A stretch of DNA of 64,000 nt. Origin: Stygiolobus caldivivus. GTDB lineage: Archaea; Thermoproteota; Thermoprotei_A; Sulfolobales; Sulfolobaceae. Position 1 is the stretch's first letter, and every line of letters starts with the position of its first letter. Below the pieces are notes generated by a model. The model was not told the DNA's origin, searched no databases, and worked only from the letters and a program-made list of their open reading frames with translations. Positions 15,256 through 50,445 of this stretch are shown here, in pieces. The DNA lies in assembly GCF_019704315.1 (NCBI RefSeq), contig NZ_AP024597.1, positions 1,054,001-1,118,000 on the forward strand, read 5' to 3'. The translations under genes were made by a program, and so were the position numbers.

Positions 15256-15977
15256 GGGTTAGTCTTTCAGTTAAGCTAGAGCTAATGGAAGTTAAAATTA
15301 GGAAGGAGCAAGTAAGCGGAACGCAAAGCCCTTGGGGGGCGACACCGCGCTTTCGGTTTACGAAGTCCCAGACACAGCCGCTCCCTAGTCCGTACCTCTC
15401 CTTTCTTTTATGAAATTCCCAAGCCCTTTTAATTTCATTAGGGATTAACATAACTGGTCATATGGACTATACACTACGTAATATTTTTATTAGTAAGATT
15501 TATCATCGACACCGAGAAGGAGAAAAACCAGCATAAAATTAGGTATAATAATATTCGTAACAGGATGGAAGACGTGGGCTGTACTAGAGGAGTGGAGTGG
15601 AGAGTATGGGAGATATGAGGGCCCATTAAAGACGTTCATAGTGGTAGTGGGGTTACTGTGTCGTGTTACGTGAGTTACACGATTTTTACAAGAAGGGTGT
15701 CCGCCGTCATCAGTAGGGAAAAATTCCCGACACCGAGACAGCCGAGGTACTTAAGGAATGGGGGGACACGGCCTCAATAAAGGGCCCTTGAGGGGTGTCG
15801 GGTTGTTTAATAGTTTAGGGGGTGACAAGAGTGATAATAATAATACACAATCAATTTTTCCCAGTGAACTGTGGACAACACAATTTTTTCTCACTGGAAT
15901 GACGACCACTGCTTACCTACTCCTCTCAGCAGTCTTTCAAGGCCTAAAGGGAAAAACCGGCATAAATACCCTTTTAA
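15256..15977. other. Gene-poor region with protein-like relics
   Basis: No intact gene supported. A plus-strand frame at 15758-15991 ends with SELWTTQFFLTGMTTTAYLL, close in sequence to the end of the relic at 9100-9140 on the opposite strand, so both look like the same broken gene end. The rest is degenerate. Confidence 0.4.
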
Positions 15978-15994
15978 ATACTAGTAACTAGTAT
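15978..15994. promoter_or_regulatory. Palindromic operator before small antitoxin-like gene
   Basis: ATACTAGTAACTAGTAT is a perfect 8+1+8 inverted repeat ending 6 bases before the ATG at 16001. It overlaps or directly follows the TATA-like TTTTAAATA (15973-15980), so a bound protein would block transcription. This is the usual place for autoregulation by an antitoxin. Confidence 0.65.
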
Positions 15995-16000
15995 ATATTT

Positions 16001-16150
16001 ATGAGAATTGTTGAGGACGAGCACGGGAACAGGTTTTTAGTCATCGAGGATAAAGAGGACTTAGAGAAGTTTAAGGAAGACGTCTTGAGGAGGATAAGGG
16101 AGAAGGCTAGTGCCCGTAAACCTCCTTATGAGACCCGTTCTCCCAAATAA
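16001..16150 (+). CDS. Small antitoxin-like protein
   Basis: 49 residues: MRIVEDEHGNRFLVIEDKED, then LEKFKEDVLRRIREKASARK and a short tail. The N-terminal half is strand-like and acidic, the C-terminal half an amphipathic charged helix, as in small RelB-type antitoxins. A TATA-like box about 25 bases upstream and a 17-bp palindrome next to the start suggest a leaderless, autoregulated gene. Its last 44 bases overlap, tail to tail, the 3' end of the RelE-like toxin gene on the other strand. That convergent arrangement is unusual for a toxin-antitoxin pair. The role is inferred from size, the operator and the neighbour. Confidence 0.55.
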   Translation: MRIVEDEHGNRFLVIEDKEDLEKFKEDVLRRIREKASARKPPYETRSPK

Positions 16151-16379
16151 ATACGATACAGTTTTTCGTGTCCACACTGTATAGTACCCTTATATCGCCC
16201 GTAACTTCTATGGAAAACATGGGGTTACCGTAAATGTCCTTTCCTAATTTTTCCCTAGGATATTTAAAGGGATCGTTTTGAATCAATTCTATTTTCTCGA
16301 AAATAAGCATTGCTACCTTATCGTTATACTTGTTGGCGATATGGTCTACTAGCTCTTGATAACTTTTAGCTTTCCTCAT
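16107..16379 (-). CDS. RelE/ParE-type toxin
   Basis: 90 residues. The order of elements matches small RelE mRNA-interferase toxins: N-terminal helices (YQELVDHIANKYNDKVAMLI), a PREKLGKDIYGNPMFSIEV segment, then the core strands DIRVLYSV and CIVFIWENGSHKEVYG. The Arg of DIRVLY corresponds to the family's central Arg, and the C-terminal strand ends with a His-Lys pair where the catalytic residues usually lie. A TATA-like TTTTTAAATAC lies about 55 bases upstream of the ATG. The expected antitoxin is not upstream; instead a small gene on the opposite strand overlaps its 3' end. Probably intact. Confidence 0.75.
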   Translation of the reverse strand: MRKAKSYQELVDHIANKYNDKVAMLIFEKIELIQNDPFKYPREKLGKDIYGNPMFSIEVTGDIRVLYSVDTKNCIVFIWENGSHKEVYGH

Positions 16380-16620
16380 TAAAAATCTCAGTTCCTACTT
16401 CTCACAGACCACGTTAAAAGAAATAGAAGTAAGTATTTAAAAACCTTTCTGTTTTTATTCTTTCTTAATTAACATCTCATTAGAAAAAATAATAATAATA
16501 AGATAAAATTTTGAACTCGACTAGGATTAAAATTATAAAGTAAGTAGAGAACGCGAGAAATACATAATTCCATTGGAGATTCGCCAAACCAAGAACAATT
16601 TAGAATTAATTTAGGTTTGT
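16380..16620. other. AT-rich spacer with repeat relic
   Basis: Promoter region of the toxin gene plus AT-rich DNA. At about 16563-16581, ATAATTCCATTGGAGATT resembles a decayed CRISPR repeat, suggesting that array 2 once extended further. Confidence 0.4.
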
Positions 16621-36914: not shown

Positions 36915-37304
36915 TTAACTTATACAGATGTTATGTTTTTTACAGACATGATCTAGTGTGGCCTCGGTTGAAGTAAACTCCTTATGACAAATGGGGCAGA
37001 CTTTCGTATGTTCCGCATATCGCAAATGGTTTTTTAATGCAGTTAATGACGAAAAAGGAACTAAGCAAAGCGGACAAACATAAGGGCTTATCGACTTTGC
37101 GGTTAGGAACTTGTAAACATAATTATATTCTTCTAGTAGTTGTGGGTTTTTAACTAGTATCTTAACGATAGCTCTAATGAGTCTTTTTTGCTCGATAGAC
37201 AGTTTTTTATACGCTTCATACTCTTCTAATGAAATGTGAAAAGATATAGTCTTATTTTTTGAACTCTTTTTGGTCTGTAAATTTTTGTCTATAGACTTAT
37301 CCAT
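36915..37304 (-). CDS. RHH-like / double C2H2 zinc-finger protein
   Basis: 129 residues. The N-terminus is Lys-rich, and KNKTISFHISLEEYEAYKKL reads like the strand and first helix of a ribbon-helix-helix domain. Two C2H2 zinc fingers follow, at about 77-99 (CPLC...HLRYAEH) and 103-124 (CPIC...HVCKKH). Small C2H2 and RHH proteins are hallmarks of Sulfolobales viruses and plasmids and are rare in core archaeal genes, so this gene points to a mobile-element origin. Probably a DNA-binding regulator. Its TATA-like sequence lies in the AT-rich DNA right of 37304. Confidence 0.75.
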   Translation of the reverse strand: MDKSIDKNLQTKKSSKNKTISFHISLEEYEAYKKLSIEQKRLIRAIVKILVKNPQLLEEYNYVYKFLTAKSISPYVCPLCLVPFSSLTALKNHLRYAEHTKVCPICHKEFTSTEATLDHVCKKHNICIS

Positions 37305-37541: not shown

Positions 37542-37667
37542 CTCTTTGGAAAAACCTTTTAAAATATATTTTTTATAATAGACATTATGATGAAAAGGCT
37601 ACTACTACTTTCAATAAGTGTCCTACTCCTTTTATCAGTAATTGCATCTTCACAAGTCAGCCAAGTG
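37542..37667 (+). repeat. Direct repeat covering promoter and signal peptide, copy 1
   Basis: About 125 bp nearly identical to 39421-39546, including the AT-rich promoter, the ATGATG start and the whole signal-peptide sequence. It marks a recent tandem duplication of the gene start. Confidence 0.85.
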
Positions 37668-39392
37668 ACCACAATTACAGCTAGGGACAGATCTGTGAAC
37701 GTGTACAGTGTGACGCCCTATGATAACGGTATAATATTGACATACAGCTGTACAAACATCACCTTCTACACAATTAATCACTTAGTGCATGCGAGTTATA
37801 ATTCCACCTTGTTTGTCTATTTCATAAACTCTACTAATAAACTGTTACTGTATAAAGCAACGTTCCACTATATCCAGTCTGCATCCGCATTCGTAAGTGG
37901 CGGAAAACTTTACTTAGTAATAGGGCCTACAGTGTATGTCTTCGAGGGTTTAAGGCTAGTAAACACGTTTACCGTAAAGCATTCGTTCGGGCTCTGGAAC
38001 GGCACACTATTCAACCTAACAGTACCAGTAATAACGTATATAGACTGTCCGCACATCGTCAACATCACTATAGTTCTAAACAAGAGTAGCATTACCCTGA
38101 TTAAACTCTGGCCTATAGCAATGCTACAATTACCTAAAGGGATTTTAGTAGTTTCTGAAAACCTAAGCAGTAGTGCGAGGACGGCTATTGAGTGCTACTA
38201 TAAGCCACCTTATCATTCATTAAGTCTAAGTCACGTGATCAACATTACACTGTACAGTTATGACGGTAAGGTAATATGGACTAAGGATTATGTCGATTAT
38301 ATAAGAGCAGATAATGTAGTAACGGCAGGGGTTAGCAGTGAATTTAACGGTTTATACCACAGTTTATTCCACTGGGGTTACGCTACAGTAGTCGGTGGCA
38401 CGTTGTATATTTATAACGTTACCTGCACTACGGGAAAGATTGATGTTAATATTAACCTAGGTATTATAGGTATTAATTTAAGTAACGGTGAGGTAGTCAG
38501 TAAGATACAGTTAGATAACGTCCCAGCGTACTCAGATGCATTATTAAACATAGGCGGTAATTTGTACGCGGTAATACTTAATACTACGACAAATAAAGTC
38601 GAGTTAAACAAGAGTGCTAATTTGGGCAAAATAATAGACGATATATTACTTCATAGTCATGCCTATCTCGCTGTGGAGAAGTATAATGGTAGTGGGCTGA
38701 CGCTAGTAACTAAAATACCGGTTGTAGAAAAAGTTGTTGGAAGGACCAGTGGAACCAGTGGACTACCCGGTAATGCTAGTCTTCCTATTATTGCGCCTAT
38801 ATCCGGTTTCTTCTATGACCCCGGGAATTACCTTGTAGTCGTTAACCCTACTATTAGGGGTTCTAATGTTACGGACGTGTATAAGGGCGGTGTTGTAAAC
38901 TACTTGTTGAGTGGAAATGTAACACTTTACCCGAGCACTGGCGTAATTATACTAAATGATAGTAATGGCTTCCTATTAGCCTTCTTAAACAGTAACGGTA
39001 TTGTGAGGGGAATTGAAAGTGTGGGTAAGGTTTTAACGATTTCTGAATGCCTTCCATTTATAGTAGGTCAGACTGAGAGGCTTGATATTTATATAGCAAA
39101 TGTTACTCCAAACGTGTATTATGTGGTCAAGGTCGTCCCTACCGTGAGTAGTAAGGGTATTGTGGAGGCTGAGGTAATAGTAGATGAAGTTACAGTCCAG
39201 AACAACGCTAATATTTCAGTAACGTACATTAATACACCGTCAGCACATATCGTCTCGTCGACACAGGTTACTACACCATCAGTAACAAATACTACTACCT
39301 CGACACCGTTTACGTGGAGTGGTGTAATAATAGGGGCAGTAGCCTTAGTTATAATACTCGCTTTAGTATTCATTTTAAAAGTGAAAAAATAA
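37587..39392 (+). CDS. Secreted, membrane-anchored surface protein (family A)
   Basis: 601 residues. Signal peptide (KRLLLLSISVLLLLSVIASS, about 3-22), large beta-rich ectodomain with over ten N-glycosylation sequons, a Thr/Ser stalk (about 555-575), a C-terminal membrane helix (WSGVIIGAVALVIILALVFI) and a KVKK basic end. Paralogue of 33952-35658. The promoter contains TTTTAAAATATATTTTTTAT just upstream of the ATG. The first 125 bp of the locus are repeated downstream at 39421 in front of a truncated copy. T-runs after the stop may end transcription. Function unknown. Confidence 0.75.
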   Translation: MMKRLLLLSISVLLLLSVIASSQVSQVTTITARDRSVNVYSVTPYDNGIILTYSCTNITFYTINHLVHASYNSTLFVYFINSTNKLLLYKATFHYIQSASAFVSGGKLYLVIGPTVYVFEGLRLVNTFTVKHSFGLWNGTLFNLTVPVITYIDCPHIVNITIVLNKSSITLIKLWPIAMLQLPKGILVVSENLSSSARTAIECYYKPPYHSLSLSHVINITLYSYDGKVIWTKDYVDYIRADNVVTAGVSSEFNGLYHSLFHWGYATVVGGTLYIYNVTCTTGKIDVNINLGIIGINLSNGEVVSKIQLDNVPAYSDALLNIGGNLYAVILNTTTNKVELNKSANLGKIIDDILLHSHAYLAVEKYNGSGLTLVTKIPVVEKVVGRTSGTSGLPGNASLPIIAPISGFFYDPGNYLVVVNPTIRGSNVTDVYKGGVVNYLLSGNVTLYPSTGVIILNDSNGFLLAFLNSNGIVRGIESVGKVLTISECLPFIVGQTERLDIYIANVTPNVYYVVKVVPTVSSKGIVEAEVIVDEVTVQNNANISVTYINTPSAHIVSSTQVTTPSVTNTTTSTPFTWSGVIIGAVALVIILALVFILKVKK

Positions 39393-39420: not shown

Positions 39421-39546
39421 CTCTCTGGAAAAACCTTTTAAAATATATTTTTTATAATAGACATTATGATGAAAAGGCTACTACTACTTTCAATAAGTGT
39501 CCTACTCCTTTTATCAGTAATTGCATCTTCACAAGTCAGCCAAGTA
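39421..39546 (+). repeat. Direct repeat covering promoter and signal peptide, copy 2
   Basis: Second copy of the segment at 37542-37667; differences are few and mainly near the right end. Confidence 0.85.
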
Positions 39547-39684
39547 ACTACAATCACAGCTAGGAGCAAATCCGTAAACGTGTACAGCGTCGTACCCTAT
39601 GATAACGGTATACTAGCAACGTTTAGCTGTATAAATGCCAGTATATCTAAGATTACTCACGGGTCGCTTACGTCTCCATTGTAA
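39466..39684 (+). pseudogene. Truncated family A surface protein
   Basis: 72 codons. The signal peptide is identical to that of the 37587 gene and is followed by SKSVNVYSVVPYDNGILATF, also close to it; then the frame drifts and stops after HGSLTSPL. Downstream DNA no longer resembles the family. The intact promoter means it may be transcribed and could give a short secreted peptide of about 50 residues, but truncation by incomplete duplication is the simplest reading. Confidence 0.75.
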
Positions 39685-40665: not shown

Positions 40666-41463
40666 ATGTACATACTGAACGATAGGGGAGAATTAGTAGA
40701 TCCTGAAATAGGTGAAGTGGTTAGTGAAGAACTGATGTTTTGTTTCGAAAGGTACGACTATCTAGTTCCCATAAATACAAGGAAATTTAGTAATACAGAC
40801 GAGGAAAGATATATGAGATATATCAAGTACATGGATTATAGGAGAAGTGAGTTAGACGACATAATAAACATTCTCTATTCCAGAATTGAAGACGAGAACA
40901 TACGTAAGAATTTCATAGCTTGGGCAGAGGAGATGAAGAAGTACGGTAGACCGGGTATTTTAGCCGCTTTTACAATAGCCCATTACAGGCAAGGTTTATC
41001 AATAAAGACAAAGGCCCTAAGGAAGGAGTTTAATGTAAGTGAGTTAGAGTTCAGAAAGGCTAAGAAATTATTGCACATGCGGCTGGGGAAGAAGGACATA
41101 GACGCTATTGTACTCGAAAAGCTGAAACAGTACGATAATTTTGAGGAGCTTAAGAGGAAATATTTTGAGTTAAAGGAGGAAGAGGTTTTCTCCGGCAAGA
41201 ACATCGAGACCAGGATTAATATACTACTGGGCTCTATAAAGAGGAACCCGGTGAGGAAGAAGAACGACGGTATTACCGTTACCGCGGTCGATGATAAGAA
41301 CCACGTTATATGTCCTAAGTGCGGGCAAGTAGGGGTATTGAAGCTTATGGAGTTCCAACGTAAATACTATTATTACGTAGTAGTACACTATGTCGGTATG
41401 TACAGGTACCAGAAGCACTATCTGGGTAAAAACGTTAAGGTACAGAAGGTCCTGAAGGTCTAA
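40666..41463 (+). CDS. Plasmid-like DNA-binding protein with C-terminal ribbon
   Basis: 265 residues. The start (LNDRGELVDPEIGEVVSEE) is worded like the zinc ribbon of archaeal TFB but lacks its cysteines. The middle (about 75-135, ENIRKNFIAWAEEMKKYGRP, then a helical block with VSELEFRKAKKLLHMRLG) could be a cyclin-like or HTH fold. The C-terminus has a single CPKCG pair followed by YYYYVVVHYVGMYRYQKHYL, a ribbon pattern recurrent in Sulfolobales plasmid and virus proteins. Probably a replication or transcription factor of an integrated element. ATG start with a TATA-like TTTTTATATAG about 25 bases upstream. A 20-bp direct repeat follows the stop. Confidence 0.5.
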   Translation: MYILNDRGELVDPEIGEVVSEELMFCFERYDYLVPINTRKFSNTDEERYMRYIKYMDYRRSELDDIINILYSRIEDENIRKNFIAWAEEMKKYGRPGILAAFTIAHYRQGLSIKTKALRKEFNVSELEFRKAKKLLHMRLGKKDIDAIVLEKLKQYDNFEELKRKYFELKEEEVFSGKNIETRINILLGSIKRNPVRKKNDGITVTAVDDKNHVICPKCGQVGVLKLMEFQRKYYYYVVVHYVGMYRYQKHYLGKNVKVQKVLKV

Positions 41464-41600
41464 AAATTGAATACATAAATACATTATTTATAATTTAGAT
41501 CATAAAATGATGAAAAAGCCTAAAAATTGAATACATAAATAGAATAAAGCTATATTTCCTTTTTTATATATGAATTTTGTAAAAATTAAATGCATAATGA
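41461..41600. repeat. Short iterons after the ribbon protein gene
   Basis: TAAAAATTGAATACATAAAT occurs at 41461-41480 and 41521-41540 (60 bp apart), with a diverged third copy (AAAAATTAAATGCATAATGA) at about 41581-41600. The first begins in the stop codon of the upstream gene. The regular 60-bp spacing is iteron-like. Confidence 0.55.
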
Positions 41601-41936
41601 AATTTAAACTAACTGTTCTCCTCCTATGCGTGGGTGGGTCTGTCGCAGGTCGTGGTGTACCCACGCTAAATCTATTAATTCGGGGTATAAACGACGTAAT
41701 ACCATTGAGCCGTTCTCTGTTATCTAAATTATAACGACCTTACCGCACGTCTTAATACGCCTGAGTTTTTAACATTATTTAACGTGTATTTGATAGATAA
41801 AATTTCACTTTATTAAGAAAAATTGCAACCGTAAAAGAAACGCGGGTCGGTTCCCTCCCCATTATTTTAATTTCCAGTTGTAATTAATGCATACAGAAAT
41901 AGTTTTATACCCCCAATTTCTAGTTGTTTTGAAGGG

Positions 41937-42572
41937 GTGTATCTTGTGAATAAAGTGGTTATCGGTGTAGTAGTGGCTGTGATAGTCGTTGTGGGTGTTA
42001 TTGCCGGGTTGTTCTTGCTGAGGACTAGGAGTACAAGTAGTGTCCCCCCTACTAGTGTGACACCCATTAGTGTCCCGCCTACTACGTCAACTACATCTAG
42101 TGTACCTACTTCGACCAGCAGTAGTACGCATACTAGTGTTGTTCAGAGTATTTCTCCTTTTAGTGTGCCTTCTAAGGACTTAATCAAGTTCTACAAGTAT
42201 AATAAGACTTATTATGTTTTTGAGTTACCGCCTAACGCTACTATGTTTGACAACTTCACGTGGTATAACATGAGATTTTGCCTTTCAACCGGATATGCTA
42301 CAGAGTTGACTAATGGAACTGGCATCTCTTGGAACGGTATATCTTATTTTTACATTAACGGTGTTCGTTATAAGGTAGTTTGTTGCCCGTATACGATATG
42401 TGGTACACCGGCGCTTGAGAACGGTTATTTAATAGTTTATGCTACGGGGCCGACTACACCGCCATCACCGGGAATTTATGAAGGAAAAGCGACATTAGGA
42501 TACACTTTTGTACCTTATGGGCCAAGTTCAATATTCAATATAACAGTTTATGCCGAATTTATAAATAAGTAA
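41937..42572 (+). CDS. N-terminally anchored secreted protein with Ser/Thr/Pro stalk
   Basis: 211 residues. VNKVVIGVVVAVIVVVGVIA forms one membrane helix at about 4-27, RTRSTSS follows, then a Ser/Thr/Pro stalk (about 33-75) and a small ectodomain with four cysteines (MRFCL, VVCCPYTIC) and N-glycosylation sequons. Similar in plan to 29331-30599. Its stop TAA (42570-42572) is followed after 7 bases by the ATG of a signal-peptide frame belonging to the large membrane protein gene, so the two are probably co-transcribed. Function unknown. Confidence 0.65.
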   Translation: MYLVNKVVIGVVVAVIVVVGVIAGLFLLRTRSTSSVPPTSVTPISVPPTTSTTSSVPTSTSSSTHTSVVQSISPFSVPSKDLIKFYKYNKTYYVFELPPNATMFDNFTWYNMRFCLSTGYATELTNGTGISWNGISYFYINGVRYKVVCCPYTICGTPALENGYLIVYATGPTTPPSPGIYEGKATLGYTFVPYGPSSIFNITVYAEFINK

Positions 42573-42579
42573 ATTATTG

Positions 42580-44393
42580 ATGAGAAGGGAGATAAGAATA
42601 AAGGTATTCTCAATAGTTTTTTAATACCCCTACTTCTGGCAATAAATAGTAGTCTAATAACTTTAGCAGGTACTGGTGGTAGTCCTGGTAGTAATAATAA
42701 CACGGTAAAGGACTTCGCACAGTTTCTTAGCTATCTAGCAGCGTTACTCGAGGCGATGGCGTTAGTAGTAATAAGAAAGGACTTCACATACGGAATGGTA
42801 TTTATAGTTGCTGGGGTTATAGTAGCCTTACTTACTGCCAGCTATAACAGCAATAACTATCAGGGGAGTATAATAGTTTCTCACCGGCTTGAAGTAACAG
42901 TCGAGGTATATCAGTGGTATCCGGGCTGTATTCTGAGTACTGCTCACTGGAATGTAGCACCTAATAACATCTTTGATCCGGGAGTTTGCCCTGCATATAT
43001 TGTAGTTTCAATTAGTGGAAATTATAATTTAGGGAGTATGGCTAACGTCACTGTAAAAATATACGAGCCTAGCGGATATGTATGTGTGAAACTCAACGTC
43101 CCGTATAGTTCAACTGCTGTAATAGGGCCTTCAGGGCACCAATTGACTTTTCATCATGTATATGTAACGAGTTTTACACCGAAGCAGGGTAGGTACGATA
43201 TCGTAGTTACCGTGCAAGCCGTAGTGAATAATAGTAGGATTACTACTATCTATTATGGCTCTGGGCAAATGGCTTTAGTTGCTGAACCGGGAGGTCTCGG
43301 AGGAATATTTAACGGTGTCCTTCAGGCTATATCGAGTTATTTTGAGTCTGGAGTAGGTGCCCTTCCTTTAATAAAGTCTGGATTAACTAAATCTATTGAG
43401 GGTATATTATACGTTCCAATTATTAGTTATCATGCTTCTTACGGTCCTGCTAGTAACACTGCTAAATTCTTATATAAAAGCGTCTTTATGAGCTTTGCCA
43501 GCACTTATGCACTGCTATTCCTTGCCGCTAATGTAGGGCTTAACGCGTTCTTAGGCAAATACGGGGACTTCTACGATCTCCTAAGGGACTTGATATATAA
43601 GTTAGGGGTTTACTGGGTCTTTACTTATGCGGGAATAACGATATGGAACCAGTCTGCTTATATACTAAACAATCTAGTAAATCAAATACTTCCCTCTGGT
43701 GATGTTATAAAATTAGCTAACGATCTTTCAAGTCAGCTTACTTTAACTGGAGCACTCTATGAAGCTGGTAGTGCAGCCGATGTCTTCGGTGGCCCGTTAT
43801 CTCAATTATTTAAGTTTTTACTACAATTGACTGTAGCAATATTCCTTGCTGGTGCAATTAGGGAATTGATTCTATATGCGCTTGCTGCGCTGATTCCATT
43901 CATAGCAGTTCTCTGGTTGTTCGATTGGACTAGAAAGTTTGCTGATATGATACTGAGTGTAGGACTTGCTTTCGTAATTAGTGGTGTAATCGACGCATTG
44001 GTCTTAAGGCTCTTAATAGCTATTGGTGGGCTTTTATTCTGGTTTGCTGGGCCCTTTTTCATCGCAGTCTGGATAGGAATGACATTAGGTACTGTAAATA
44101 TTTATTATAATATAGTCTATCATCACATTAGTACGTTTTTACAACCTGTAACAAAGATCAGTTCTTCTTCGGCTGGTAATACACCCGATATACCCGACGA
44201 TATCGGTGACATTGGAGAGGCACCCGAAGCTGCTGGAGCTATTGAGCTTGGATTTAAGAAGTTAAAGAATCGAATAACTAGTCGTCATAATGAAAGGGAG
44301 AAATTGGAGATCATAATGATTAAGAAGGATGATGACGAGGAGAATAGTAAGATCGGGGCTGAATCAGATAATGATGATAAAAAATTAAGTTAA
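42580..44393 (+). CDS. VirB6/TrbL/CedA-like polytopic membrane protein, -1 frameshift near start
   Basis: The long open frame has its first ATG at 42756 (545 residues), but the same frame continues upstream as FLIPLLLAINSSLITLAGTG with no start codon. An ATG at 42580 in the other frame gives MRREIRIKVFSIVF and stops. A -1 shift at the T6 run 42617-42622 joins them into a normal signal peptide (MRREIRIKVFSIVF-LIPLLLAI) and a protein of about 604 residues. Two hydrophobic helices follow near the start (LSYLAALLEAMAL; MVFIVAGVIVALLTA), then an ectodomain of about 150 residues, at least five more helices, and a charged cytoplasmic tail. This plan recalls conjugation or DNA-transfer channel proteins, but no sequence motif proves it. 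The 3' end overlaps the convergent 44385 gene by 9 bases. Confidence 0.5.
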
Positions 44394-44756
44394 GTATTTT
44401 TTTAGCTTTAAGTACACGCGGTACGGGTCTCTTACTCCGCTTATTTTTACAACCTTACCGTCGTTTAGGAGAAAGTATAACGTGTCTTTATTTAACACTA
44501 ACTCTCTCACGTCCTTCCACATGAAATAGAGCCTTCTCTTATTCCCGATCAGCCTCCAGATACCCGAGCCGTCATAGCCGTATTTGGGCATAAAGTAATA
44601 CCCCAAAATCGCTACAACGTCTAGGAATACTAGTCTGTAATCTAACAGGGATAAAATTATAGCAAACGCGGTAAGTTCTAACATCACTAAATCCCCTTTA
44701 GTCGGTATTATAGACAGATCACGGTTTGCCGAGAACACCCTCTTTAACTTGTTCAT
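44385..44756 (-). CDS. Small membrane protein with PH-like tail
   Basis: 123 residues. Basic N-terminus, hydrophobic hairpin at about 24-55 (LELTAFAIILSLLDYRLVFL, then VVAILGYYFM), then a beta-strand-rich region (RRLYFMWKDVRELVLNKDTL, FLLNDGKVVKISG) resembling the bacterial PH/photosystem-assembly fold seen in small membrane proteins. Convergent with, and overlapping by 9 bases, the VirB6-like gene, with T7 at 44397-44403 in between. Function unknown. Confidence 0.6.
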   Translation of the reverse strand: MNKLKRVFSANRDLSIIPTKGDLVMLELTAFAIILSLLDYRLVFLDVVAILGYYFMPKYGYDGSGIWRLIGNKRRLYFMWKDVRELVLNKDTLYFLLNDGKVVKISGVRDPYRVYLKLKKYLT

Positions 44757-44791
44757 ACCACAAATTACGGTATTTATAAATCCGGTTATTT

Positions 44792-45343
44792 TTGATGAAG
44801 GCGAACAAAGTTATTCCGGCGGTGTTCTTAGCAGTAATAATAGCCGCTATAGTGTGGGGTGTAGTGCTTCACAATAATAGCGGGGCATCACCAACATTAG
44901 TGACCACCAATACGGCAGTTAATGCCCCATTACAGAGGGGCTTATACGACCTCGAGTATAAGGTAGTGTTCGGCGGTTTTGCGAAGGAGATAATGGGCGT
45001 TAACGGGAGTAGTTACGTAATAGTGTTAAACGGGGTTTTTAACTACCCACCGAGCAATGTGACCCCCGGGACTTACACTCTGTTGTCCATTAGCGGGAAT
45101 ATAACTTTCGCAAATAGTACTCAAACTCATTTCGTAATCCCACTGTACCAAGAGATCAGTATAGACGGTGCAAACTCCGAGAAGTTCTACATCGTATTGC
45201 AAGGTAACAGCCCGGCGGTAGTACAGGTCTACAATTACCTTGAGCACCTAAAGGACGAAGGTATATACACTGCCCCAGTAGAATTTAACATTATGATGGC
45301 TAATGCTAGCGTAGTGCAGATTGAAGGGGAGATATATCTCTAA
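44792..45343 (+). CDS. Pilin-like secreted protein
   Basis: 183 residues. MMKANKVIPAVFLAVIIAAI, with one hydrophobic helix directly after a Lys-Ala pair, resembles a class III signal of archaeal type IV pilins, cut by PibD. The rest is a glycosylation-rich beta domain without a second membrane segment. Either ATG (44792 or 44795) may be the start. Divergent from the 44385 gene with a 35-base gap. A T6 run and a copy of the 105-bp element follow the stop. The pilin assignment is inferred from the N-terminus only. Confidence 0.55.
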   Translation: MMKANKVIPAVFLAVIIAAIVWGVVLHNNSGASPTLVTTNTAVNAPLQRGLYDLEYKVVFGGFAKEIMGVNGSSYVIVLNGVFNYPPSNVTPGTYTLLSISGNITFANSTQTHFVIPLYQEISIDGANSEKFYIVLQGNSPAVVQVYNYLEHLKDEGIYTAPVEFNIMMANASVVQIEGEIYL

Positions 45344-45733: not shown

Positions 45734-46990
45734 CTATTTCTTCCTGATTGACGCTACCACTATACCGATTAGAATAACAACTGCGACCCCGATTATTGCG
45801 AGAGACACGGGAGGTATACCGGTAGAAGTCGTAGTGGGTGGAGCCGGAGGTGTTGGTATCTTTCCCGTAATATTCGACGGACTTTTCGCGGTAAGCTCCG
45901 CTAGCTGCGAAGAGTTCGCCGGTACTGTAGGGATAATACTAATGGACCCAGACCCAGCGTTTGCCACGTATACATAACCATTGTAGGGGTCGTAAGTGAC
46001 ACCAAATGGGCCTTTCCCTACTGGTATCGTCCCTACCACTTGGTTTGTAGACGGGTCAATTACTGAGACCGTATTTGACCCATAGTTTGTCACGTATAAG
46101 TAACCGTTACCGGCGTCATACGCTATACAGAGCGGTTTATTTCCTACTGGTATCGTCCCTACCACCTGGTTTGTAGACGGGTCGATCACGGAAACTGAAC
46201 TGGAACCGCCGTTAGCCACGTATAAGTAGCCGTTACTAGGGTCGTAAGCTATGCCAAACGGGTATTTACCTACGGGTATTGATGCTACTACATTGTTTGT
46301 AGACGGGTCGATCACGGAAACTGTCCAAGAAACACAGTTTGTCACGTATATGTAGCCGTTTGAAGGGGCGTAAGCGACCCCTATGGGCCTTTTACCCACA
46401 CATATACAATTCACGACTTTGTTTGTAGACGGGTTAATTACCGAAACCGTATTGGAACCACAGTTTGTCACGTATATGTAGCTGTTTGAAGGGTCGTAAG
46501 CGACCCTACACGGATTACTACCTACGGGTATGCGATTTACGGATTTATCCGTGGACGTGTTAATTACACAAATTACATCAAACTCTAGGTTCGTCACGTA
46601 TACATTGCCGTTAGATGGGTCATACGCGATGCCAAACGGGTTATTACAAACGCATATAGTGTTTATTACTCGGTTAGTGGACGTGTTAATTACATAAACT
46701 TTATCAGAATTAACGCTTGTCACGTATAAGTAACCGTTGGACGGGTCGTAAGCCATAAGGTTCGCAGTCACGCCGTGATTGTTATTATTGACTACGTTAC
46801 CTTGGTATAACGTCCCGTCGTACAAAACTAGTGTGTATTTTACATACCCGATATCAGGGGTATTGTTTGTGTCACCGTGTACTGTTAATATGCCCAAGCT
46901 AGGTAACAACGTTAAAGGGGCCAATACTACTACTATTATTATTAACGCCTTAATGGCTACTAACCTGACACTGTTATACCTCCTCATCAC
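45734..46990 (-). CDS. YVTN beta-propeller surface protein
   Basis: 418 residues. N-terminal signal or helix (VAIKALIIIVVVLAPLTLLP), then seven repeats of about 43 residues (GIAYDPSNGYLYVTN, then SVIDPSTNQVVGTIPVG), the YVTN/NHL-type propeller blades, a Pro/Thr linker and a C-terminal helix (VSLAIIGVAVVILIGIVVAS) with an IRKK tail. The number of blades fits one closed seven-bladed propeller outside the cell. Such proteins are S-layer or adhesion associated in archaea. TATA-like TTCTTATAATTTG about 15-25 bases before the ATG. Paralogue of 58955-60091; the N-terminal motif IGYVKYTLVLYDGTLYQGNV recurs there as TGYVKYTLVLYNNTLLPGNV. Confidence 0.85.
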   Translation of the reverse strand: MMRRYNSVRLVAIKALIIIVVVLAPLTLLPSLGILTVHGDTNNTPDIGYVKYTLVLYDGTLYQGNVVNNNNHGVTANLMAYDPSNGYLYVTSVNSDKVYVINTSTNRVINTICVCNNPFGIAYDPSNGNVYVTNLEFDVICVINTSTDKSVNRIPVGSNPCRVAYDPSNSYIYVTNCGSNTVSVINPSTNKVVNCICVGKRPIGVAYAPSNGYIYVTNCVSWTVSVIDPSTNNVVASIPVGKYPFGIAYDPSNGYLYVANGGSSSVSVIDPSTNQVVGTIPVGNKPLCIAYDAGNGYLYVTNYGSNTVSVIDPSTNQVVGTIPVGKGPFGVTYDPYNGYVYVANAGSGSISIIPTVPANSSQLAELTAKSPSNITGKIPTPPAPPTTTSTGIPPVSLAIIGVAVVILIGIVVASIRKK

Positions 46991-48159: not shown

Positions 48160-50445
48160 ATGACTAAGACGTGGAAAACAGCACTTTCGACATCACTACT
48201 CCTCATCTTTTACTTTATTTACTTAGTGGACTTTGGGGGACTCAACTTAGCCCACATAAGCTCGGCGGGACTCACGACGTCGGGCTGGCTCGCCTTGCTC
48301 TCGCTTTCCCTGGCCCTCGCGGCAATTTACCTACCGAAAAAGGCTAACTCCCCCTTAGCTGTTATAACCCCACTACTCGGCTCGTGTGCGATCGACTTTT
48401 ACTTATCGTCGGGTGTCCCCATCGGGCTCTTCCTTTTGTTATACGCAGTAGTCCCCTTCATAGCGTCAGGGGTCGGGGAGTTAGTAGGTGCTGGGGTGTT
48501 CGTGTCCTTTATCTACGCCCTCGCGTCTGCTAATTACCCCGGGTATTGGGTGCCCTTCCTCCTCTTAATACCCATTGCAGTGGCTTACTGGTCGGCAAAG
48601 GACGAACTGATGCGCCAAAAAGACATAGACACAGTCGACTTAATAGCGCTCATAATACTCCTCCTGTTCCCGTTCCCGCTTATCGCCTTTAACACGGGCT
48701 CGCCACTCGGCATCTTAATGTACCTTTCGGCTATGGCCCTCGTATTCGCGGGGATCGTGATGAAATTAAGGGGAAAGAAATCGGCTTGGCCCTTCGTGGC
48801 TTCCGCGATATTGACATACTTCGCCCCTATAGTCCTCTACTCCCAGCTCGCATGCTCCGTAAATTACGCGGCAACTTTCATTAACGCCTACGACCTCTTC
48901 TTTTACGGCTCCCTAGCTTTGGTCTTCTACCTCCCCGCACTCCTTATCAGACCATATACATCGCTTGCGCTCTTATTCACCCCGATACTCTTGGGGATAA
49001 CCGCTGCTTTGCTGACCTATTTCAATACGACTTTCTACTTCGCGGCTATCGACCCTTGGCTCGTAGTCATGACGACGCTCCCTAAGAGCCCCGCGGTCGA
49101 AGACTTCTTCTTCCCTTGGAGTCCCCCCGTGCTGTATTCGGTGCAGACACAGGTCCCGGCCCAACCCCAATATTTGGCCCAACAGCAGTATTTAAGGCCT
49201 GCACAAGTGCAACAGTTCTCCCCACAAGTCAGGTTCATACTTAAGGGGCTACCGCCGATGGTTAGGGCAGTAATAGCGGTGGGGAACGTCACGTGTGACG
49301 GCGACGCGTTAATAGACTGCAACGGGTACGGGAACTGGAGTGCTTTTCCGGTAAAAGTGGGGCAGTACGTTTACTACCCCAACCCCGGCTCGGGCTATGC
49401 CAACCCGGGAGACGTAATAACGGTATACTACGTCCCGTCTGCTTTGCCGTATCAGGTCCAGCCCCCAGCTCAGCCCCCTCAGACCTATACCTATGCCCCC
49501 TCAAGGCCCTTAGGGAAAGTCAGTATTACGAGCTTTGACCCGAACGCCCTGCTAAACAGGAGGCTCGGTGTGTATAAGGTCAAGTCTATAATAGGTAGCG
49601 GGGGGTTCGGTTACGTCTATTTGGGTGAGTTGGGTGGCGATTATTACGCGATTAAGGTACTTAAGGTGGACAAGGGCGACCCGGTGGCGTACTTCCAAGG
49701 GCTCTTCCATGAGGCTAACAACTTAGTGGACTTGTCCAACCACCCTAACATAGTCAAGATTTACGCAGTAAACGTGGACTTGAACGTAATAGATAGGGCG
49801 TTGAGTGGGGACTTTAGTCCTTACTACGCCGACCCCCCCAGGATAGTCATGGAATATATGGGGGGCGGGAGCCTGGAGAAGTACCTAAACAACGACATGT
49901 TCTTTTACTCGATGAACTGGGAAGTAGCCGTCAGGAAGGCGGTGAGGCAAGTAGCAGAGGCCTTGGCCCACATCCACGGTAGGGGGTACGTACATTCGGA
50001 CGTAAAGCCGCAGAACGTGTTCCTGACTGGGGAGCCTAAGTACCCGTCGGAGTTGCCCTCCGTCGACTTTAAGTTAGGGGATTTAGGTAGTGCGACCAGG
50101 TTTGGGAAGGACATAAGCCAAGTGACTTTAGAGTATTCTCCACCGGAGGTGTTTACGAGTAAGGCGTCGCCTTTGATGGACGTCTTCGCGCTGGGTATGA
50201 CACTGTATGTGCTGTTGACTAGGAAGGTGGATAGACCCGACTTTCAGGTGATGAACGAGGCTTTTGACTGTTATGTTAATAAAGACGTGAACTGTATCAA
50301 GGACAAAGTTGAGGAAGCGAAGCGTTTACTGGCCTCTTGGGACCCGCAAGTTTCGGAACCTTATAAGAGCTTAATTAAAGCTATGGTAGAACCAGACCCT
50401 GCGAAGAGGCCTACCGCACTGGAAGTCGCTAATAGGCTGAGATGA
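48160..50445 (+). CDS. Membrane Ser/Thr protein kinase
   Basis: 761 residues in three parts. Residues 8-290: about ten hydrophobic helices, likely a membrane sensor. About 330-450: a Pro/Gln-rich linker around a small beta domain (LKGLPPMVRAVIAVGN...). 470-761: an Hanks-type kinase with G-loop GSGGFGYV (479-486), Lys499, Glu518, catalytic HSDVKPQN (Asp614), DLG in place of DFG (641-643) and SPPEV in place of APE. All catalytic residues are kept, so it should be active. Paralogue of 61854-63707. GC-rich codons compared with the flanking AT-rich genes. It probably senses an envelope or membrane signal; substrates unknown. Confidence 0.88.
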   Translation: MTKTWKTALSTSLLLIFYFIYLVDFGGLNLAHISSAGLTTSGWLALLSLSLALAAIYLPKKANSPLAVITPLLGSCAIDFYLSSGVPIGLFLLLYAVVPFIASGVGELVGAGVFVSFIYALASANYPGYWVPFLLLIPIAVAYWSAKDELMRQKDIDTVDLIALIILLLFPFPLIAFNTGSPLGILMYLSAMALVFAGIVMKLRGKKSAWPFVASAILTYFAPIVLYSQLACSVNYAATFINAYDLFFYGSLALVFYLPALLIRPYTSLALLFTPILLGITAALLTYFNTTFYFAAIDPWLVVMTTLPKSPAVEDFFFPWSPPVLYSVQTQVPAQPQYLAQQQYLRPAQVQQFSPQVRFILKGLPPMVRAVIAVGNVTCDGDALIDCNGYGNWSAFPVKVGQYVYYPNPGSGYANPGDVITVYYVPSALPYQVQPPAQPPQTYTYAPSRPLGKVSITSFDPNALLNRRLGVYKVKSIIGSGGFGYVYLGELGGDYYAIKVLKVDKGDPVAYFQGLFHEANNLVDLSNHPNIVKIYAVNVDLNVIDRALSGDFSPYYADPPRIVMEYMGGGSLEKYLNNDMFFYSMNWEVAVRKAVRQVAEALAHIHGRGYVHSDVKPQNVFLTGEPKYPSELPSVDFKLGDLGSATRFGKDISQVTLEYSPPEVFTSKASPLMDVFALGMTLYVLLTRKVDRPDFQVMNEAFDCYVNKDVNCIKDKVEEAKRLLASWDPQVSEPYKSLIKAMVEPDPAKRPTALEVANRLR

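Follow-up and report, generated by a model that had tools for sequence, protein, structure and literature searches.

The stretch of the Stygiolobus caldivivus genome analysed here (64,000 nucleotides; hereafter, the window) contains, within 4.7 kb at positions 40666-45343, five plasmid genes whose order and strands are as in pB12E5, a conjugative plasmid of Saccharolobus shibatae B12 (Table 1). Four of these genes look intact. The remaining one is represented by a frame of 606 codons. This frame begins directly after the preceding gene, whose TAA (42570-42572) is in frame with it, and has its first ATG, GTG or TTG at 42756, as codon 62. The first-pass annotation of this DNA had described the absence of a start codon upstream of this ATG, and its coordinates and translation proved correct. 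Start-less leads of at least 61 codons occur in 2 of the 245 stop-to-stop frames of at least 200 codons in 464 kb of the genome (median lead, 5 codons), and the lead observed here is more than chance.

Table 1. Plasmid-derived genes and features of the frame break (positions in the window).
Feature	Position	Strand	Counterpart or remark
265-aa gene	40666..41463	+	Homologue of the 280-aa gene of pB12E5, 46%
211-aa gene directly upstream of the body frame	41937..42572	+	Weak homologue of the gene upstream of the 732-aa gene of pB12E5, 31% over 144 aa
Body frame, 606 codons, multi-TM protein with Ig-like region	42573..44393	+	Homologue of pB12E5 732-aa protein, pSOG1 734-aa protein and pTC1 ORF458
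Original start: ATG, 13 more sense codons (MRREIRIKVFSIVF) and TAA; cut-off signal-peptide N-region	42580..42624	+	pB12E5 and pSOG1 genes start at the equivalent ATG
Run of six T (T6) where the frame breaks; its last T is also the T of the TAA	42617..42622	+	GTT TTC TTA at the equivalent place of pB12E5, without T6
Longest ORF from a standard start codon (545 aa), beginning within TM1, without the signal segment	42756..44393	+	
123-aa gene	44385..44756	-	Homologue of the 126-aa gene of pB12E5, same relative strand, 57%
182-aa gene, ATG 44795 (mechanical ORF from TTG 44792)	44795..45343	+	Homologue of the 200-aa gene of pB12E5, 40%

Another ATG, at 42580, opens 14 codons, MRREIRIKVFSIVF, which end at a TAA (42622-42624) right after a run of six T (T6), the last T of the run doubling as the first base of the stop codon, as the first-pass annotation had noticed. 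When reading steps back by one base at TTT, it goes on as LIPLLLAINSSLITLAGTGG, the start of the body of the protein, and a signal-like N-terminus is restored. A 16-nt inverted repeat (41327-41342 and 42620-42635) that overlaps the T run was treated as a chance occurrence, about 0.25 such repeats being expected per such region by our own estimate.

Sulfolobus conjugative plasmids carry one gene homologous to the body, the product of which has 732 aa in pB12E5 and 734 aa in pSOG1 (48-50% identity to the body). Shorter homologues are encoded by pAH1, pMGB1, pTC, pARN3, pARN4, pYN01, and pBEU9E1, the identity to the pTC1, pAH1, pARN3, and pMGB1 homologues being 22-27%. All nine plasmid homologues, as well as the full-length chromosomal and contig relatives examined, have an in-frame ATG, GTG or TTG, a signal-like segment and an uninterrupted frame. 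The first-pass annotation had proposed to look in homologues for the same T run, or for a clean start at the ATG at 42756, the latter as an argument against a split N-terminus. No plasmid, chromosomal or contig homologue has a break or T6 at the equivalent place (pB12E5 reads GTT TTC TTA) and none starts at the equivalent of 42756, and among the relatives compared the frame break is private to the Stygiolobus copy.

Aligned to the N-terminus of the pB12E5 protein, the 14 residues encoded from the ATG at 42580 have a BLOSUM62 score of 30, whereas the peptide read in the same frame as the body scores -3; among 390 14-mers in the window that begin with an ATG, about 0.3% score as well, and no shuffle does. 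Against the nine plasmid homologues the scores are 4 to 30 for the former and -24 to -1 for the latter, with the ATG-led peptide higher in all cases; it ranks with, or ahead of, the top 0.3-7% of the other ATG-led 14-mers in the window. Sliding the junction between the two frames gave the best match to pB12E5 at codon 13/14, which is the T6 run; the comparison with pSOG1 (114-124 at any junction vs. 102 without a junction) does not discriminate its position. These alignments show that the upstream ATG belongs to the gene. The plasmid and other full-length relatives, which read the signal segment and the body in one frame, confirm that the N-terminus and the body were once one gene. The earlier claim that a frame change near T6 parts the signal-like N-terminus from the body is thus borne out by homologues that hold this N-terminus in frame. 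A search of the genome revealed no second full copy of the gene. Scans of genome and viral contig collections with a single protein, and tblastn against phage records, gave no hits, and an alignment-based scan of the viral contigs was likewise negative. A 230-aa partial copy of this gene family is present in another Sulfolobaceae genome (contig positions 604905-605438), as a further decayed copy.

The same comparisons bear on the possibility that translation starts elsewhere in the body frame, either at an unusual codon (ATT 42573 or 42576) or at the internal ATG 42756, and that a working variant is made without recoding. The body frame is indeed open back to 42573 and encodes a hydrophobic segment after IIDEKGDKNKG. 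However, the scores of the same-frame N-terminus given above are below those of the ATG-led one, initiation at 42756 falls inside the first transmembrane segment and discards the signal segment, and no homologue compared uses such a start, which makes an alternative start unlikely.

With regard to the function of the product, the first-pass annotation had likened it to VirB6/CedA. CedA, TedA, and VirB6 are the membrane channels of related conjugation or DNA-import systems (PMC9905601). Hydropathy analysis of the protein revealed hydrophobic stretches at residues 11-35, 48-67, 69-94, and 409-506, the last long enough for three to four helices, which points to six or more transmembrane helices, as in the VirB6/CedA family; nine are given for pTC1 ORF458 (PMC4390865). 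A profile of the family gave no VirB6 match in Pfam or in PDB sequences, and its match to solved structures was weak and confined to the Ig-like region (profile positions about 96-177). For the body, searches of Pfam, NCBIfam, and PHROGs were uninformative, and an AlphaFold model built from three sequences had a mean pLDDT of 37.6, too poor for fold comparison. The likeness to VirB6/CedA is therefore a plausible analogy, grounded in position and multi-TM topology.

The surroundings of the gene are those of a degraded element. As compared to the plasmids, the locus is missing the two conjugation ATPases (671 and 1032 aa; one is VirB4/TrbE-like, one TraG-like), a 626-aa gene, and the integrase. 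Elsewhere in the genome, a single contig of 2,958,410 bases, neither conjugation ATPase has a full-length copy, the weak matches corresponding to open frames of 545, 162, and 151 aa. No match to an integrase of pNOB8 type occurs in the window, integrase fragments being present only in a second remnant near 2.039 Mb, and no tRNA gene was found in the window by ARAGORN at bacterial settings, which archaeal intron-bearing tRNAs could escape. By its gene content the locus is recognizable as a remnant of an integrated Sulfolobus-type conjugative plasmid, and we call it a remnant and not a conjugative element because both ATPases are absent.

The second remnant (genome positions ~2,039,000-2,044,500) is heavily eroded. 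Its integrase pieces are 91-96% identical to the pB12E5 integrase; the middle of the gene is missing and the pieces lie in different frames. It also holds an ATPase fragment, small plasmid genes, and a toxin-like gene. In the window, two small overlapping matches to pB12E5, one of which is a RelE/ParE-family toxin (67% identity), are located at 15902-16436, 25 kb from the five-gene remnant. Between two genes of the latter (41455-41605), an AT-rich direct repeat of 32 nt occurs three times with a spacing of ~60 nt, the copies being 69-100% alike.

Certain genes that flank the remnant or lie farther away deserve mention. The gene of a putative 601-aa surface protein (37587-39392) and a propeller gene at 45734 lack counterparts in the plasmids and are not counted as part of the element. 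The former is followed by a 72-codon ORF (39466-39684), which repeats its first 65 residues with 80% identity before diverging and is a truncated tandem duplicate of the start of the 601-aa gene. A C2H2 zinc-finger protein encoded at 36915-37304 has a full-length match to a viral family (phrog_9259, 7.8e-58; Pfam B129_C2H2-zf), which suggests that a viral fragment adjoins the plasmid remnant. The 761-aa protein encoded at 48160-50445 is hydrophobic in its N-terminal region and has a Ser/Thr kinase domain at the C-terminus; its matches to defence-associated kinases such as MAD6 are weak and below the cutoff.

Three causes of the frame break had been offered in the first-pass annotation: programmed frameshifting, a real mutation, and an assembly error. 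Of these, a real mutation is best supported by our results, the programmed event fails in the features tested, and an assembly error is unlikely. The last would mean that the T run was misread and that the true gene is intact. In its favour, the break coincides exactly with a homopolymer, and the frame is otherwise flawless; moreover, Sulfolobus aIF1, reported as frameshifted, turned out to be full-length on resequencing (PMC8211752), and in the GeneTack survey singleton frame breaks with intact homologues were mostly taken to be errors or indels (PMC3711429). However, the Stygiolobus sp. KN-1 genome was assembled with Unicycler from filtered reads of two kinds (Illumina, 912.7 Mb; MinION, 1.0 Gb; PMC8483694), and thus is a hybrid assembly with an Illumina depth of about 308x (912.7 Mb / 2.958 Mb). 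We also audited homopolymers of at least six bases in the aligned coding sequence of 258 genes conserved with a congeneric genome. None of the 351 runs breaks a frame, which by the rule of three corresponds to less than about 0.9% per run. Because of this depth and the outcome of the audit, we regard an error in the T run as most improbable.

The audit yielded three candidate frame breaks, none of them at a homopolymer: a noncoding extension, a multi-stop pseudogene, and an arnB-like gene. Five apparent internal stops and one of the three frameshift candidates were discarded, the alignments having run outside the true gene. The arnB-like gene, at about 1,450,340 of the genome (vWA and ArnB_C domains according to its congeneric homologue), has a frame break in non-repetitive sequence with respect to the congeneric genome. 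Judging from this gene, real small indels seem to occur in the strain.

Functional slippage would bridge the break in one of two ways: the P-site tRNA-Phe would re-pair with UUU one base back while UAA waits in the A site, or RNA polymerase would add a U at U6, and some full-length protein would result. In favour of such an event, UUU re-pairs perfectly in the -1 frame, the joined product has a good signal peptide that matches those of the homologues, and the body frame is intact despite the expected neutral decay. In a related archaeon, -1 frameshifting has been proven for fucA1, close relatives of which hold a full-length gene with a run that differs by one base (PMC8211752). We assessed the site for the features of programmed -1 frameshifting, namely, an X_XXY_YYZ heptamer in the 0 frame (PMC8211752), a stem-loop or pseudoknot 5-9 nt downstream, and conservation. 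The 0 frame reads ATA GTT TTT TAA, in which both A_GTT_TTT and T_TTT_TAA deviate from the heptamer. In the 100 nt downstream of T6, no stem-loop better than in shuffled sequences was found (z = +0.69, with folding as good or better in 150 of 200 shuffles; nested folds only). The frame transition and the slippery site are not conserved in homologues, which counts against recoding without being decisive, fucA1 itself being broken in only two strains of one species. As for transcriptional slippage, the run has six T, as compared to nine or more in many bacteria, on a scale that varies by organism (PMC1088944). Runs of six T are common in ORFs of the genome, intact genes included (56 T6, 12 T7, and one T8 in 272 kb of ORFs), and the partner ATPases are gone. 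Taken together, these results make functional slippage of either kind very unlikely. The codons at the break leave only one-tRNA slippage in the P site as a translational route. At a low level, with a stop codon in the A site, it is physically possible; that a stop codon waiting there still drives such slippage at U_UUU_UAA, with some full-length signal-bearing protein as the outcome, appears highly improbable.

The locus probably carries a real indel of recent date, within a conjugative-plasmid remnant in decay, and the gene would be a pseudogene or give at most a trace product. The ancestral gene would have been read in a single frame that began with the ATG at 42580, encoded a signal peptide, and continued into a body with several transmembrane helices. 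Loss of one base (or of one base plus a multiple of three) near 42610-42622 would have left both T6 and the immediate stop; judged from the pB12E5 sequence, the base lost may have been the C of TTC or one T of a T7 run. Translation from the original ATG would now stop after 14 residues, and a longer product could arise only by rare slippage at T6 or by initiation at 42756, without the signal segment and part of TM1. As the element has already been stripped of the VirB4-like and TraG-like ATPases and the integrase, it had probably ceased to function in conjugation, and the lesion would have been nearly neutral. With these genes lost and a second, more eroded remnant in the same genome, a frameshift is to be expected. 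The first-pass annotation, in stating that a -1 frameshift is needed to make the protein, presumed that the protein is still made, and the surrounding remnant lacks the motor ATPases.

The body bears no other lesion over the 590 codons past the break, while about 1-4 further lesions per 1% divergence would be expected under neutral decay, depending on the assumed indel rate. Therefore, the lesion must be recent unless selection still maintains the body, so that some expression is conceivable; this is the main reason why slippage or an alternative start retains a small probability. On balance, we infer that the indel is real and recent and that the gene is non-functional.

The results correct the start of the gene, which annotation would put at 42756, and show that it belongs to a conjugative-plasmid remnant in Stygiolobus. 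As a case of recoding, the locus matters little. Only one -1 case, fucA1, is described as proven in archaea (PMC8211752), and slippage at U_UUU_UAA, if true, would provide a second archaeal -1 recoding site, with a stop-linked U-run in place of the canonical heptamer, and would bear on whether archaeal -1 recoding is wider than one gene (PMC8211752).

Similarly to fucA1 of Saccharolobus solfataricus, the Stygiolobus gene shows a -1 register change at a homopolymer and has close relatives that encode the protein in one frame (PMC8211752). However, in fucA1 a canonical A_AAA_AAT heptamer is accompanied by a putative stem-loop, and frameshifting has been proven by experiment, while the Stygiolobus T6 site has neither canonical heptamer nor structure. 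The likeness to VirB6, CedA, and TedA is that of a polytopic membrane protein whose gene lies in a conjugation region, next to genes of small membrane proteins; unlike CedA, the Stygiolobus protein is much longer and contains an inserted Ig-like region. Among the closest counterparts is a Section A conjugation gene (J5U23_RS00150 of pB12E5, pTC1 ORF458, pSOG1_p7, pAH1_p5, pARN3_p5, and pMGB1_p5), homologous over most of the body. The product of pTC1 ORF458, with homologues pSOG1_p7, pAH1_p5, and others, has been described as a conjugation-region protein with "signal peptide and transmembrane regions (9)" (PMC4390865). The Stygiolobus gene shares with it the signal-like N-terminus and several transmembrane helices, and has the same neighbours as on pB12E5 and pSOG1, but it is broken after codon 14, its product is about 130-200 aa shorter at the C-terminus than the pB12E5 and pSOG1 proteins, and both ATPase genes are missing nearby. 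The locus resembles decayed integrated plasmids and pseudogenes of Sulfolobales in that its gene set is incomplete, the ATPases and the integrase are gone, the frame break is an isolated one, and the genome contains a second remnant. It differs from the second remnant in that the body is open over 590 codons, which suggests a younger or less advanced lesion.
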